Translations under genes and position numbers: made by a program
Notes under the pieces: model-generated
Databases searched by the model: none
The model's input: only the letters and a program-made list of their open reading frames with translations
What the model was told of the DNA's origin: nothing
NCBI GenBank assembly: GCA_946537255.1
Contig: CAMNFS010000007.1
Coordinates: 1 to 56,096 of the forward strand
Direction: 5' to 3'
DNA length: 56,096 nucleotides
DNA from: an uncultured Erysipelotrichaceae bacterium
GTDB lineage: Bacteria; Bacillota_I; Bacilli_A; Erysipelotrichales; Erysipelotrichaceae
In this document: one piece after another, positions 7,103 to 14,060 of the stretch
Layout of the letters: the number at the start of each line of letters is the position of its first letter
How positions within the stretch are numbered: the stretch's first letter is position 1

Positions 7103-7697
7103 AAAAATGCGGAATATGAAAGTGATCATCGCTTCCGGAAATGCCGGGAAAATCAAGGAATACCGGGATATTCTTGAACCGCTTGGGTGGGAAGTGATAT
7201 CCCGGCATGAGGCAGGGATTGACGCGGATCCGGAGGAAACCGGCACAACATTTGAAGAGAACGCGCTGATAAAAGCCAGGGCGATTCATGATCTTGCCCA
7301 TACATGTGTCATAGCTGATGACAGCGGCCTTCAGGTAAAGGCACTCGGCAATGAACCGGGAATTTATTCCGCAAGATATAAAGGGCTTACCGATGAGCAC
7401 GCCCGCAGAATGGCGGTTCTGCAGGGCCTTGAAGGGGCCGCTGACAGAGAAGCTCAGTTTGTCTGCTGTATCTGTTTTATGGAAGAAAACGGGGCGCATC
7501 ATCTTTTTACCGGGATCTGGAATGGAACGGTTGCCATGAAGGAAGAGGGAGAAAACGGGTTTGGATATGATCCGATCTTTATCTCTGAAGACAGCGGCGG
7601 AAAGACGACAGCTTCACTTCCGATCACCTTTAAAGAACAGTATTCTCATCGCGCGAAAGCGGTGAGACTGCTGCTGGAGTATCTTCAGAATCAGTAG
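7089..7697 (+). CDS. rdgB: XTP/dITP diphosphatase (RdgB/HAM1 family)
   Basis: This enzyme removes non-canonical purine triphosphates (XTP, dITP, ITP) by cutting them to monophosphates. Family motifs are clear: SGNAGKIKEYRDIL near the start, DDSGLQV and GFGYDPIF. The ATG at 7089 gives 202 residues. An ATG at 7116 would give the more usual short N-terminus (KVIIASGN), and neither start has a strong ribosome site. The last 68 bases overlap the diguanylate cyclase gene on the opposite strand, tail to tail. Confidence 0.9.
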   Translation: MKNTEKMRNMKVIIASGNAGKIKEYRDILEPLGWEVISRHEAGIDADPEETGTTFEENALIKARAIHDLAHTCVIADDSGLQVKALGNEPGIYSARYKGLTDEHARRMAVLQGLEGAADREAQFVCCICFMEENGAHHLFTGIWNGTVAMKEEGENGFGYDPIFISEDSGGKTTASLPITFKEQYSHRAKAVRLLLEYLQNQ

Positions 7698-8802
7698 CGC
7701 GTTTTCTGCGGTCATAGCCGCCGTATTCCGGCGTATGTGTCCGCTTTTTTACTGCGTAAAGCGCCTTGTCCGCTTTTGAGATCATCCGGAACAGATCCTG
7801 TCTGGACGCTGCTGTGCCTTCTGATGTACCGATGCTGAGAAGAATGGTTCTGGTTTCCTTTTCGCCGTGATAATCAAAACGATAGATATCATCCGGTCCC
7901 TGATTATGATCCATATTCTCGTGGATCACCAGAAATTCATCTCCGCCATATCGGTAAATCCGGCTGTCCGGGTAGTTTGTCCGAAGATGAACGGCAACTT
8001 CCTTCAGGATTTCATCCCCGGCAAGATGACCAAGTGAGTCATTGATTTCCTTGAAATAATTGATATCAATCATCCGGATCTTCAGAGGTTTCTGAATCAG
8101 ATGATCCGCGTCTTCTTCCAGAGCAGTCCGGTTTCTGAGTCCCGTAAGTCCGTCATGACGGGCAGAGTATTCCAGCTTCTGATTGGTTTCCTGCAGGGCA
8201 ACTGTTTTGGTAGACAGATAGAGCTGGGTATGAAACCGGAAAATCATGGCCGTGATGGAAATGAGCACCAGAAGAAAATAGTTGTGCGGCTGAACCAGAG
8301 CTGCCTTGTCCGTAACATACAGAATTCCATATTGCAGCAGATAGACAAAGCTGACCAGAATCACGCTCATAAGCGGCTTGAAGACGATGAAACAGGCAAT
8401 GATCATCTGTACGGTAAAAAACACCATCATCTGTTCATGGGCGATGTAATGACGATAATCGGTCACGATTCCCCAGATGGAGAAAGCGATGAAGAACACC
8501 GTTTTGAAGATAACAACATATCGGTGATTCATGGTTCTGTCCGCGAGCATTCTTCTGGAAAAGATGAATGTCACAAGACACAGGATCAGCCCGATGGAGA
8601 CCATGGAAAAAACGATATTGAAATCGGGATCCTTTCCGTAAGAGGTAATCGTATAAAAAATAAAAGTTATGAGGTCCGCGATCAGGACTGCCAGAGAGAT
8701 CTGGTAGATATTGCGCATGCTGGACCAGTCTATATCATTCTGAATCTTCGTGCTGATTGGATCAGGGAAGAGATAATACTTCAGTTTTTCAAGCCAGTTC
8801 AT
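7630..8802 (-). CDS. Membrane-bound diguanylate cyclase (GGDEF domain)
   Basis: Makes cyclic di-GMP from two GTP. Residues about 32-190 form five or six membrane segments with no recognised sensor domain. A short linker leads to DGLTGLRNR (about 217-225) and the intact active loop RYGGDEF (GGDEF at 286-290). The usual RxxD inhibitory site before GGDEF is missing (YPDS in its place), so product feedback may be absent. The ATG at 8802 is chosen over earlier starts because AGGAGGTGG precedes it. No EAL or HD-GYP phosphodiesterase or PilZ receptor is seen in the window. Confidence 0.9.
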   Translation of the reverse strand: MNWLEKLKYYLFPDPISTKIQNDIDWSSMRNIYQISLAVLIADLITFIFYTITSYGKDPDFNIVFSMVSIGLILCLVTFIFSRRMLADRTMNHRYVVIFKTVFFIAFSIWGIVTDYRHYIAHEQMMVFFTVQMIIACFIVFKPLMSVILVSFVYLLQYGILYVTDKAALVQPHNYFLLVLISITAMIFRFHTQLYLSTKTVALQETNQKLEYSARHDGLTGLRNRTALEEDADHLIQKPLKIRMIDINYFKEINDSLGHLAGDEILKEVAVHLRTNYPDSRIYRYGGDEFLVIHENMDHNQGPDDIYRFDYHGEKETRTILLSIGTSEGTAASRQDLFRMISKADKALYAVKKRTHTPEYGGYDRRKRATDSEDTPAAVSPLSRDENTVL

Positions 8803-8935
8803 TTCCACCTCCTGAGATCTGATACTGCCATAAACAGCAAAGCAGTCATTTGGGCACAGGCTTACAATATAATTAACACAGAGAAAGCCATAAAAATGGC
8901 AGACAGAGTGTGAATTATGAAAAAAACAGAAAAAA

Positions 8936-9472
8936 ATGATATGGTGGATCCCATGGATGATTCTGTGCGCCGCGATGCTTGCGGGATGTTCCGGAACAGC
9001 GGCATCCTCTTCTGCTAGGCCGGAAGACAACAGATCTCTGATTGTTCCAAGACATACCTATTTTCTGAAGGACAGCCATGAAGTGAAAGGACGTCAGGGA
9101 GTCTGTACAGATGGTACATATTATTATGTCAGCGGCAGCACATCCCTGACAAAGTATGACAGGGACTGGAATGTAATCGCTGAAAACAGGGATCCTTTTT
9201 CGGGCTATGAAGCAGAAGTGAATCATATCGGAGATATCGATATTCATGATCATCATCTGTATATCAGCGCTGAATACTTCATGGACGGAGAGGGAAAGAA
9301 TATTCAGATTGCGCTGTATGATCCAGAAACCCTGACCCTGGAGAGAACCTTCCCTTTTGAAGCGGAAAGCGGCCAGCTGGAATGTTCGGGCATTGCGGTG
9401 GATCCGGATGGCAGTTATGTATACCTCTGTTCATGGGTGGGCGAAGAAAGCGGCAGATATCAGTACCGATAA
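8936..9472 (+). CDS. Lipoprotein with beta-propeller-like repeats, probably truncated
   Basis: The 178-residue product has a lipoprotein signal (lipobox LAGC) and then repeated blade-like strands (DGTYYYVSGSTSLTKYDRDW; HHLYISAEYF; DGSYVYLCSW). This suggests a YncE-like propeller fragment. It stops in the middle of a blade, so a longer ancestor of about 300 residues is likely to have lost its 3' part. The ribosome site is weak. The 133-base gap to the divergent cyclase gene holds a TATAAT at 8868-8873 that could serve this gene. Confidence 0.55.
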   Translation: MIWWIPWMILCAAMLAGCSGTAASSSARPEDNRSLIVPRHTYFLKDSHEVKGRQGVCTDGTYYYVSGSTSLTKYDRDWNVIAENRDPFSGYEAEVNHIGDIDIHDHHLYISAEYFMDGEGKNIQIALYDPETLTLERTFPFEAESGQLECSGIAVDPDGSYVYLCSWVGEESGRYQYR

Positions 9473-10712: not shown

Positions 10713-10749
10713 AAAAAAGGCTCTGATCTTCCGGATCAGGCTTTTTTTT
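10713..10749. terminator. Bidirectional terminator between the PPOX and STAS genes
   Basis: The arms A-run-GGCTCTGATC and GATCAGGCT-run form a stem with T-runs on both strands. The STAS stop codon lies inside the downstream arm, so that gene ends within its own terminator. Confidence 0.8.
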
Positions 10750-11035
10750 CGATCGAGATAAAGTTTGTGAATCCTGAGACCTCGAAGATATCATAGACAG
10801 TCTGGCTGACGTTGACTACGCTGACCGACTTTTCGCGTTTGACTACCTTGATAATAATCCGCAGACCGGCACTGGAAATATACTCCAGCTGATCAGCGTC
10901 AAAAACAACAATCTGATCGGATGTCGGATCATTTATCCCTTCAATCTCCTGCTCCACGGCTGACGCATTGGACGCGTCAATCCGCGGTGGCAGAATAATT
11001 GTCAGAATTCCGTTTTCATTTTTTGACTCAATCAT
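10736..11035 (-). CDS. Single-domain STAS protein (anti-sigma factor antagonist type)
   Basis: A 99-residue protein that is all STAS domain: ILTIILPPRIDASNAS, VVFDADQLEYISSAGLRIII and a final helix. Members such as SpoIIAA and RsbV are switched by phosphorylation of a Ser in this same loop (Ser54 or Ser55 here) by an RsbW-type kinase. No such kinase is in the window. It lies 27 bases after the CARF-HEPN gene on the same strand, so the two are almost certainly one transcript. It may be a partner or regulator of that protein. Confidence 0.88.
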   Translation of the reverse strand: MIESKNENGILTIILPPRIDASNASAVEQEIEGINDPTSDQIVVFDADQLEYISSAGLRIIIKVVKREKSVSVVNVSQTVYDIFEVSGFTNFISIEKKA

Positions 11036-11062: not shown

Positions 11063-13321
11063 TTACTCTTCAATATTAATCGTAATTTTAAGAAGATGTC
11101 TTCCGGGTTTACTGTTTCCGACAGATACATTGACCGTCTGATCCTTTGGACCGTGCGGTCTGCCGTTATTGCCAAAGGACCGACTGCTGTTATTCTGCCG
11201 GTAGTTGTTATACGGCCGCCTGTTGCTGTATGAACGGTCGCTGTTGTTGAAACGGCCGGAATCCGAGGTGCGCCTGCTGTCTCCCGCATGGAAATCCGCT
11301 TTTTCCGGTGCTTTCTTTGCGGTATCCGAATGGACTGGCTGATCCGCTGCCGGCGGAGCTGCGTTTTCCGGGAAATCCGTTTTCAGGGCAGCGTTTTCTG
11401 CCGTGACTGCCGGGGAATTCACGGGTTCCGCGGGTCTCTCATTCCGTCTGTGATTTTCCTGACGGTAATCATTCTTGTAGATCTTATGCGTATTTGCATA
11501 GTCTTTGAATTCCTGCGGGTCAATCTCAATGACGTGATATTCGTCATTCAGCTTACTCAGATATTCCGCTGTCTCATCCATGGCGTCAACGAATGCCTTG
11601 ATGCCGTTTTTCAGAAGCGTCATGTTCTCACTCTCTGAGCGGATATCATAGGTATTGATCTGTTCACTGGGGGATGTGGCCTCTGCGTGATTGATGCGAT
11701 TTCTGATTTCACCAAGTTTATAAAGCGTATAGAGTACCCGGGCCAGAAGTTCCTGGTTATCCGACATGCGGGAATGTGCCTTCAGAAGAAGGGTGTTCTC
11801 TCCGGTAATGGATGCGATTCGGAAATCAGTGTATTCCTTTGAACGGTCGGATCCGGGAGGCGTTTTTTTCATGCGGTCTCTTCCGTAGTATTTGAAGAAG
11901 TAATGACCGATTTCGGAGTACTGCCAGCGGTCTTTCGGAAGCGCATTCCAGTATATCTGGTTCAGCTCATCCATGAACGCCTGCTTTGATTCCTCGCTGT
12001 CGGCATAATAGAAAATCCCTTTTCTGACAATGTAGTCGGGAAGTCTCGATTCCAGGATCGTCAGAGCCTGCTGATAGAATCCCTTTCGGACAGACCATTT
12101 CACAAGATCCAGCTCATCGATTTCATCTCCGTTCAGAAGCGGTCCGTAATCCATACGGATGGTCTGCTCGAGAATCCGGAAAATATTGGTCTCCACCTCA
12201 TGCAGTTCTTCCTCCGGCGTTGAACTGAAAACCTCTTTCAGAAGATTGATTCCATTCACAAGATCGGGGATATTGCAGAGGCTGATGCCTTCATCGACTC
12301 GTCCCATTGCATACAGAAGCTTGTTGATATGCTTGTTTTCTATATTCCGGGAGATCCAGTAATCCTTGACATCATCAACCTTTCCATAACGGATGAAGGC
12401 ACTCATTCCGGAAACAAGAAGATTGATATCATAATACTGCATTTCCTTGTTGTCGATCGGGGAAGCGACATATTTCGGATCATAGCGGGAGGTGACAATT
12501 TCCTTTACATGAATCCTGCTGTAGATATCCTTGCCGAGCATGTTCAGCACTGCCAGAAAAATCAGCCCTTCCGTATTGGCAAGACCCTGCATATCCATGT
12601 AGATATCGATATTCCGGGCATCCACATCTTCGAGGGCCTTAATCACCTGGGTAACATTCCCGGCCGGAACATAAATGCGGGATCCGGGATTTTTCTCGGT
12701 TGGAATAAAACAGATCTTCAGCCCTTCATTATCCTGACGCGGGAAGAATTTCATGGAGTTGGACAGCTGGGTATAGATGACGCGCTTGATCCAGAGGTGT
12801 TCCTCCCTGGACAGATCCGGAAGGTATTCCATGAGTTTCTGATACAGGCTGTCATCGATTGCGAGCATATGGAAAACCCGGTCAGGACGGTATTCCGGAA
12901 GGGTAGACGCATAAGTGAGAAAATCCTGAAATCCTTTCATGATTTCCGTTTTTCTGTCTGCGTCGATGTTTTCAAGAACATCCACCGCTTCAAGATCCAG
13001 TCCGTCCAGATACTGGGAGATACGGTACTGAAAGAAACTGTATTCAGAAAGAGAGGCTGTGTCTTCCGCCTTGAAATTCGACCATTCCTTCAGAACGAGC
13101 GGCTTCATCTCTTCCCCGGGATTAAATGTACTTCCGGCACCGAGGACAATGATTTCTTCAAAAGGCACACGGGAAAGAAGATATTTCGTTCCGGCTTCCG
13201 CCACACTCAGTCCGTCACAGTACTGAATGATTCCGTTTTCTTCGTAATAGAAATACCGATGGGATTTCCGGTCAAACTGACTTGAAAGGGATGTAATAAG
13301 AATGTTGCAGGTATCTTTCAT
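11063..13321 (-). CDS. CARF-like plus HEPN protein (TM1812/Csx1-like), without CRISPR genes
   Basis: The 752-residue protein starts with a Rossmann-like region: NILITSLSS (residues 6-14), IIVLGAGSTF (about 57-66) and IYMDMQGLANTEG (about 240-252). This is the layout of CARF domains that sense cyclic oligonucleotides in type III CRISPR immunity. A helical part ends in EIRNRINHAE, whose RNRINH (540-545) is an exact R-N-x3-H HEPN RNase motif. Residues about 617-740 are a disordered tail rich in Asn, Arg and Ser, ending in KPGRHLLKITINIEE. ATG at 13321 has GGAGGA upstream. The fold assignment is inference from motifs; the RNase activity is untested. Confidence 0.72.
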   Translation of the reverse strand: MKDTCNILITSLSSQFDRKSHRYFYYEENGIIQYCDGLSVAEAGTKYLLSRVPFEEIIVLGAGSTFNPGEEMKPLVLKEWSNFKAEDTASLSEYSFFQYRISQYLDGLDLEAVDVLENIDADRKTEIMKGFQDFLTYASTLPEYRPDRVFHMLAIDDSLYQKLMEYLPDLSREEHLWIKRVIYTQLSNSMKFFPRQDNEGLKICFIPTEKNPGSRIYVPAGNVTQVIKALEDVDARNIDIYMDMQGLANTEGLIFLAVLNMLGKDIYSRIHVKEIVTSRYDPKYVASPIDNKEMQYYDINLLVSGMSAFIRYGKVDDVKDYWISRNIENKHINKLLYAMGRVDEGISLCNIPDLVNGINLLKEVFSSTPEEELHEVETNIFRILEQTIRMDYGPLLNGDEIDELDLVKWSVRKGFYQQALTILESRLPDYIVRKGIFYYADSEESKQAFMDELNQIYWNALPKDRWQYSEIGHYFFKYYGRDRMKKTPPGSDRSKEYTDFRIASITGENTLLLKAHSRMSDNQELLARVLYTLYKLGEIRNRINHAEATSPSEQINTYDIRSESENMTLLKNGIKAFVDAMDETAEYLSKLNDEYHVIEIDPQEFKDYANTHKIYKNDYRQENHRRNERPAEPVNSPAVTAENAALKTDFPENAAPPAADQPVHSDTAKKAPEKADFHAGDSRRTSDSGRFNNSDRSYSNRRPYNNYRQNNSSRSFGNNGRPHGPKDQTVNVSVGNSKPGRHLLKITINIEE

Positions 13322-13497: not shown

Positions 13498-13626
13498 CTG
13501 AAAAAATCATGAAAAAGGTTAATTTTTCAGTGAAAATAAGGGCACTTTTTTTGCGCTAATCAATGGACAAATGGAAAAGGAAGAGTAAAATGGACATTGT
13601 AAATCAGTCGATCGTCTTAAAAGACG
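13498..13626 (+). promoter_or_regulatory. Structured leader of the cell-wall protein gene
   Basis: Two inverted repeats precede the gene: CTGAAAAA/TTTTTCAG (13498-13505, 13523-13530) and CGTCTT/AAGACG (13613-13626). Between them is a GGGCAC-T7 stretch. The leader is long for this genome and may control transcription or mRNA stability. No riboswitch class is recognised. Confidence 0.35.
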
Positions 13627-13649
13627 AAATTTCAAACAGGGGGATTCTT

Positions 13650-14060
13650 ATGAAAAAAGTTGTTACTATCGCAGCGTCACTTCTTCTTGCGGCAACACCG
13701 GTTACTGTTCTGGCTGGCAAAGGCAGCTCCAAGTCCGGTGATGATGATCAGCCCGCAAAGGTCTATGATCCGTGCGCAACAAGCAACCCTGCACTTGCTG
13801 GCAAGGGATGCCTGTTCTATGTAAACGGACAGATCGTTACAGCAAACGGTGACGGCACATTCACAACAGCAGCTGGAAACATCTTTGATGCAAACGGCAA
13901 GCTCGTTGGAACAGTCGGCGGACACGCAGCTGCAACAGCAGCCAAGAGCGGTGTTCCTAACACTGGTGAAGCTGACAACACAGCTTACTATGTCATGATG
14001 GGCGGAGCTCTCATCGTTATGGCTGGAGCTGGTTACGTTCTCGCTACAAACAAGAAGTAA
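13650..14060 (+). CDS. Small cell-wall-anchored protein with VPNTG sorting signal
   Basis: The protein is 136 residues: signal peptide (1-22, ending VLAGKG), a Gly/Ala-rich body with two Cys (42 and 54) and a DANGKLVGTVGG repeat-like centre. The sorting signal is VPNTG (102-106), a membrane segment (113-132) and a final NKK. A sortase would cut after Thr105 and link it to peptidoglycan. The codon use is more biased than in its neighbours, which suggests high expression. The ATG at 13650 is set by the gggggattctt ribosome site and the signal peptide. I do not recognise the body. Confidence 0.72.
   Translation: MKKVVTIAASLLLAATPVTVLAGKGSSKSGDDDQPAKVYDPCATSNPALAGKGCLFYVNGQIVTANGDGTFTTAAGNIFDANGKLVGTVGGHAAATAAKSGVPNTGEADNTAYYVMMGGALIVMAGAGYVLATNKK

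Follow-up and report, generated by a model that had tools for sequence, protein, structure and literature searches.

The window analysed here, a stretch of 56,096 nucleotides from an uncultured Erysipelotrichaceae bacterium, encodes a CARF-HEPN protein that stands alone: like nearly all members of its clade, it occurs in a host with no recognisable type III CRISPR system. Proteins of this kind are usually read as CRISPR parts, and annotation tools list them as defence genes; those of type III CRISPR are triggered by cyclic oligoadenylate. The evidence described below rather favours the view that a Csx1-like CARF-HEPN effector left type III CRISPR and would now work as a stress-gated RNase, answering to a signal other than the cyclic oligoadenylate of Cas10. 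Reported here as new are the clade itself, its loss of a signature residue that the type III-linked sister keeps, and its association with MATE and STAS genes; an earlier mention of the lineage is possible.

Architecture and fold of the protein

The gene lies at 11063-13321 on the minus strand and encodes 752 amino acids, as supported by its translation, ribosome site, PADLOC matches, a 71-sequence alignment and the fold match of an AlphaFold2 model. The frame is open from the ATG at 13321, with GGAGG immediately 5' of it; an alternative GTG start is found 33 nt 5' of this ATG, and the relatives favour the ATG (alignment A1). Searches of Pfam, NCBIfam and PDB sequences with the protein gave no convincing match, and the PADLOC CARF_HEPN and Csx1 models recognised it with a best E of 2.9e-31. 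The AlphaFold2 model, built with the 71 sequences as input, reached a mean pLDDT of 89.8 and a pTM of 0.83, and the top Foldseek matches to it were Csx1-Crn2 and Csm6.

Domain-level structural alignment of the model (VIA-align) resolves a Rossmann-like CARF domain over residues 3-294 (12440-13315, minus strand), broken by a helical insert, with Z scores of 11.9 to Card1 (6xl1) and 10.7 to P. furiosus Csx1 (4eog). It is followed by a helical linker and HEPN domain over residues 296-594 (11540-12436, minus strand), which align with Csx1-Crn2 (8y7f) at Z 12.9, with an rmsd of 3.4 over 217 residues. The first-pass annotation of this DNA had proposed a CARF-like N-terminus from short strings, all of which are present, and had named structure prediction as a check; both folds were recovered. 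It had also pointed to an exact R-N-x3-H motif at residues 540-545, and RNRINH is indeed there (11687-11704, minus strand), its R, N and H invariant in 70 of the 70 relatives with residues at the site. The RN-x3-H pattern arises in about 4% of shuffles of the window protein, and it is the conservation in 70 relatives that rules out a chance motif or a chance open reading frame. Judged by its sequence and by the predicted structure, with the R-x4-6-H type of motif in a C-terminal region of HEPN fold, this is a genuine CARF-HEPN architecture.

Beyond the HEPN domain, residues 641-752 (11066-11401, minus strand) form a low-complexity Arg/Asn-rich tail that finishes in a conserved strand-like LLKITINIEE (alignment A1), an ending found after such a tail in several members of clade A, both with and without STAS neighbours.

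The closest known counterparts are the Csx1/Csm6 RNases of type III systems, such as Marinitoga Csx1-Crn2 and P. furiosus Csx1, which share the CARF-linker-HEPN order, the RN-x3-H motif and the fold over residues 3-594. The window protein differs from them in that its host has no type III locus, its CARF signature lacks the basic residue, its helical insert is longer, its lineage has MATE and STAS neighbours, and it carries no fused ring-nuclease domain.

CRISPR loci, relatives and phylogeny

The first-pass annotation saw no CRISPR-Cas genes near the protein, and this holds well beyond the neighbourhood. No CRISPR-like repeat family was found in the window, and a search of the host genome returned no RAMP (PF03787), no Cas1 and no Cas10 palm domain above cut-off, the single sub-threshold Cas10 match being an ordinary membrane GGDEF protein. 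The Cas10 and RAMP pair that marks a type III system is thus found neither at the locus nor in the genome, and a hidden type III locus is ruled out within the reach of the RAMP, Cas1 and Cas10 searches. The host genome also holds no SMODS cyclase (PF18144), the sign of a CBASS CD-NTase; a CBASS effector was set aside for the lack of SMODS in the protein's own genome.

The same is true of the relatives. In a survey of 70 genomes of the genus, 15 had a match, and for 13 of these, among them the genome of the window, the homologue was strong (E below 1e-60). RAMP is absent from all 13; it occurs in 4 of the 70, none of them a strong carrier. Outside the genus, 3 of 50 carrier genomes have RAMP and 47 do not. 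Carriers are mostly draft MAGs, in which the absence of cas genes may be under-counted. The stand-alone status first claimed for one locus extends, by the absence of RAMP in nearly all carriers, to the whole clade.

The scan of genome contigs kept 80 loci. Named contigs of the same genus are mostly Solobacterium (Erysipelotrichaceae), and the remaining carriers belong chiefly to Lachnospiraceae, Oscillospiraceae and unplaced Clostridia; titles that state a source give rumen or gut. The stand-alone clade comprises about 70 proteins of rumen and gut bacteria, mostly Bacillota. In a tree of 32 representatives, the 24 stand-alone rows are set apart by a branch supported at 98/94, and their neighbours are the proteins of loci L112 and L113; a 79-row tree gives the same pattern. 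Both neighbours adjoin type III-D Cas7 genes. The cas genes placed by the adjacent-gene scan all belong to this type III-linked sister: a Cas10 at L112 and, at L113, a probable Cas6 (L113:9616-10530), so called from its Cas6-like glycine-rich C-terminus. Because L112 and L113 have long branches and pair with one another, their precise placement as sister is less certain than the split that sets the stand-alone group apart. In the same genus, the CARF-HEPN proteins linked to type III (genomes G032, G025 and G047) fall outside the stand-alone clade. All 71 aligned sequences match several PADLOC CARF_HEPN models, and these models (PDLC01829/01830) match type III-linked proteins as well, so that they cannot separate the stand-alone lineage.

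A few observations accompany this survey. The window's genome holds a second CARF-HEPN protein (C6:13656-15449; L017 9054-10940, plus strand), which is 28% identical, belongs to the other main clade and has an HU-like DNA-binding gene upstream. G047 is a 5.2 Mb bin with 10% contamination and several type III loci and CARF-HEPN genes, and is likely a mixed bin. The MAG titles of L056, L077 and L080 read Sphaerochaetaceae, Fibrobacter and Coriobacteriales, which would reflect horizontal transfer or binning error. In L040 the CARF gene is broken into two open frames of 116 and 561 aa, by what is probably a frameshift or stop in that copy. No homologue was found in plasmids, phages or viral contigs, a result that lends no support to a mobile origin and does not exclude it.

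The CARF signature and the neighbouring genes

In CARF domains a signature, [DN]X[ST]XXX[RK], is often present after strand 4; families without the basic residue have been proposed to bind distinct ligands, and in RtcR and RV2818 this residue is mostly absent (PMC4012209). By sequence comparison, the corresponding stretch of the window protein is DMQGLANTEG (residues 243-252; 12566-12595, minus strand), and its D-M-Q-G-L-A-N does not fit the pattern. Since the source calls the signature only "often" present and has these two as exceptions, the mismatch bears on the ligand more than on membership of the fold. Type III relatives read DYTGGYR (in the genus), DTHGGLR, DMQGGAR and DVQGGIR against the DMQGLAN of the window, the last two being those of L112 and L113, which retain the basic residue. 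This residue is missing from 67 of the 69 rows of the stand-alone clade. In alignment A2, K or R within the signature stretch is confined to four rows, the type III-linked L112 and L113 and the stand-alone L052 (R) and L077 (K), where it sits at or beside the signature position.

Two further features of the domain bear mention. The polar end of strand 1 (T10) is kept in 67 of 71 rows. The secondary structure of the model defines a helical insert at residues 77-184 (12770-13093, minus strand), and the spacing that holds it spans 154-180 residues among the stand-alone sequences compared, versus 65-107 in the six sequences of the genus from type III genomes; in the sister sequences it measures 132 (L112) and 275 (L113) residues. 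With so few stand-alone members retaining the basic signature residue, canonical sensing of cyclic oligoadenylate by the clade appears doubtful from the alignment.

Downstream of the CARF-HEPN gene, 27 nt away and on the same strand, lies a STAS-domain gene of the anti-sigma factor antagonist type (10736-11035, minus strand), with its own ribosome site and the SSAGLR motif kept; a terminator-like stem-loop with a T run (10723-10739, minus strand) follows. Its match to PF01740 is above cut-off (E 5.7e-11). Like the partner-switching proteins SpoIIAA and RsbV, it is a single domain with SSAGLR, and the SpoIIAA and TIGR00377 models match it weakly (50.7 bits for the latter, with a cut-off of 53.45); it differs from those systems in that no kinase or phosphatase gene adjoins it. 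RsbW-like kinases are present in the host genome, and they were set aside as proof of a partner switch because HATPase_c_2 kinases occur in 68 of the 70 genus genomes and do not track the CARF gene. At L136, an RsbW-like kinase (7238-7660, minus strand) stands beside a gene (7708-8799, minus strand) whose product looks like a fusion of a STAS domain with a HAD-type phosphatase.

The linkage of these genes across loci is non-random. In 17 of 64 CARF loci the gene directly upstream, on the same strand, is a MATE gene, compared with 5 of 519 control genes (Fisher p 1e-13); for STAS directly downstream the figures are 5 of the 73 loci with room there and 3 of 585 controls (Fisher p 6e-4). The controls are other genes of the same loci, and the p-values ignore shared ancestry. 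At L035 and L045 the STAS gene overlaps the CARF-HEPN gene by 4 nt. Beyond the loci with adjacent STAS, four have it on the far side of MATE; the arrangement STAS-MATE-CARF, in place of CARF-STAS, is seen in four clade-B loci. Between groups, the linked MATE proteins share only 20-40% identity, which, with the clade-B gene order, indicates that the linkage was probably maintained or re-established several times. In the host there are about 19 MATE genes (35 domain matches); the window copy has none adjacent, and STAS is its only neighbour of this kind. In literature searches that did not cover the main CARF census of 2020, nothing relevant on CARF with STAS or MATE was found.

Other neighbours were recorded. 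Downstream of the CARF-HEPN gene in L062, L067, L068 and L069 there is a DnaJ/TPR protein, with an Hsp70-like gene next in the first three. In the window, a divergent gene for a small surface protein with an LPXTG-like anchor (13563-14060, plus strand) has a homologue at the corresponding position next to L035/L003, the closest relative. A GGDEF protein (7630-9030, minus strand; PF00990 E 3e-26) is encoded on the strand of the CARF gene, about 2 kb beyond its end and past several opposite-strand genes. GGDEF genes occur within 6 kb at 16 loci, and this linkage was set aside, being mostly non-adjacent and counted with no control set.

Proposed function and alternatives

Taken together, these observations suggest that the protein was probably repurposed as a stress-triggered RNase. 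Its ancestor would probably have served a type III-D-like locus as an effector activated by cyclic oligoadenylate. The stand-alone lineage kept the catalytic HEPN site, lost the basic signature residue in all but a few members and has a larger helical CARF insert. The present form is most likely a dimeric RNase, as in Csx1/Csm6, and by the same analogy the CARF dimer would relay a signal to the HEPN site. The switch could be a small ligand held in a remodelled CARF pocket or a partner encoded next door, such as STAS. Its output would be the cutting of RNA and a slowing of growth under chemical or envelope stress, the kind of stress to which the STAS and MATE links point, with a MATE exporter alongside in many relatives. 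The suggestion of the first-pass annotation that the protein serves "defence or stress" can be divided accordingly: the recurrence of an exporter and a regulator leans towards stress, and the lack of any homologue in phages, plasmids and viral contigs leans away from defence.

HEPN RNases are thought to leave RNA ends with a 2',3'-cyclic phosphate. RtcR, the sensor of an RNA repair operon, offers a parallel, being like the window protein a CARF protein outside CRISPR, mostly without the basic residue after strand 4 (PMC4012209); it differs in having an AAA+ domain and acting as a sigma-54 activator, where the window protein has a HEPN domain. The CARF domain of RtcR senses RNA ends with a 2',3'-cyclic phosphate (PMC9879122), and if HEPN RNases make such ends, a self-reinforcing loop is possible, by analogy with RtcR. 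The fuller proposal, a domesticated type III effector that would have given up its response to cyclic oligoadenylate, come under the control of a new ligand or protein switch and turned into the RNase component of a STAS/MATE stress module among bacteria of the gut and rumen, a case akin to RtcR, is put forward tentatively, as credible but somewhat short of an even chance.

Other readings have to be weighed against this one. The protein could still be a cyclic oligonucleotide effector, served by a synthase other than Cas10 whose product binds the altered CARF pocket, in an anti-phage defence independent of CRISPR. The retained CARF fold and the widely kept T10 are consistent with this, as are same-strand GGDEF genes close by in L039, L040, L041, L060 and L065; however, genes of this type are frequent in these genomes and their linkage was seen with no control, and the host has no SMODS cyclase, the signature residue is gone and homologues were absent from the phages, plasmids and viral contigs searched, all of which makes this reading unlikely. 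A toxin-like RNase, restrained by the STAS protein or by transcription and with a CARF domain that no longer binds a ligand, would explain the loss of the signature residue and the close spacing or 4-nt overlap of the STAS gene; yet STAS is adjacent in so few loci, even counting the four beyond MATE, and the good conservation of the CARF domain so suggests a working pocket or dimer interface, that this seems more improbable still.

The protein might also be a type III effector acting in trans with a CRISPR locus missed by the assembly, an idea that its architecture and the draft state of the genome (129 contigs) would allow; but the assembly is rated 100% complete, the searches for RAMP, Cas1 and Cas10 came back empty, and RAMP is likewise missing from a further 12 genomes within the genus and from 47 of the 50 outside it, so that this has very little left to recommend it. 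The view of a former type III effector, now gated by stress, accommodates these data best.

The presence of a CARF_HEPN match alone, then, does not prove a type III system. The clade represents a CARF-HEPN protein that lives without CRISPR across many gut bacteria, with a marker residue of nucleotide binding changed relative to its CRISPR-bound sister, and as such it constitutes a natural experiment in the change of ligand of a second-messenger sensor and a set of proteins in which to hunt for a new signal.
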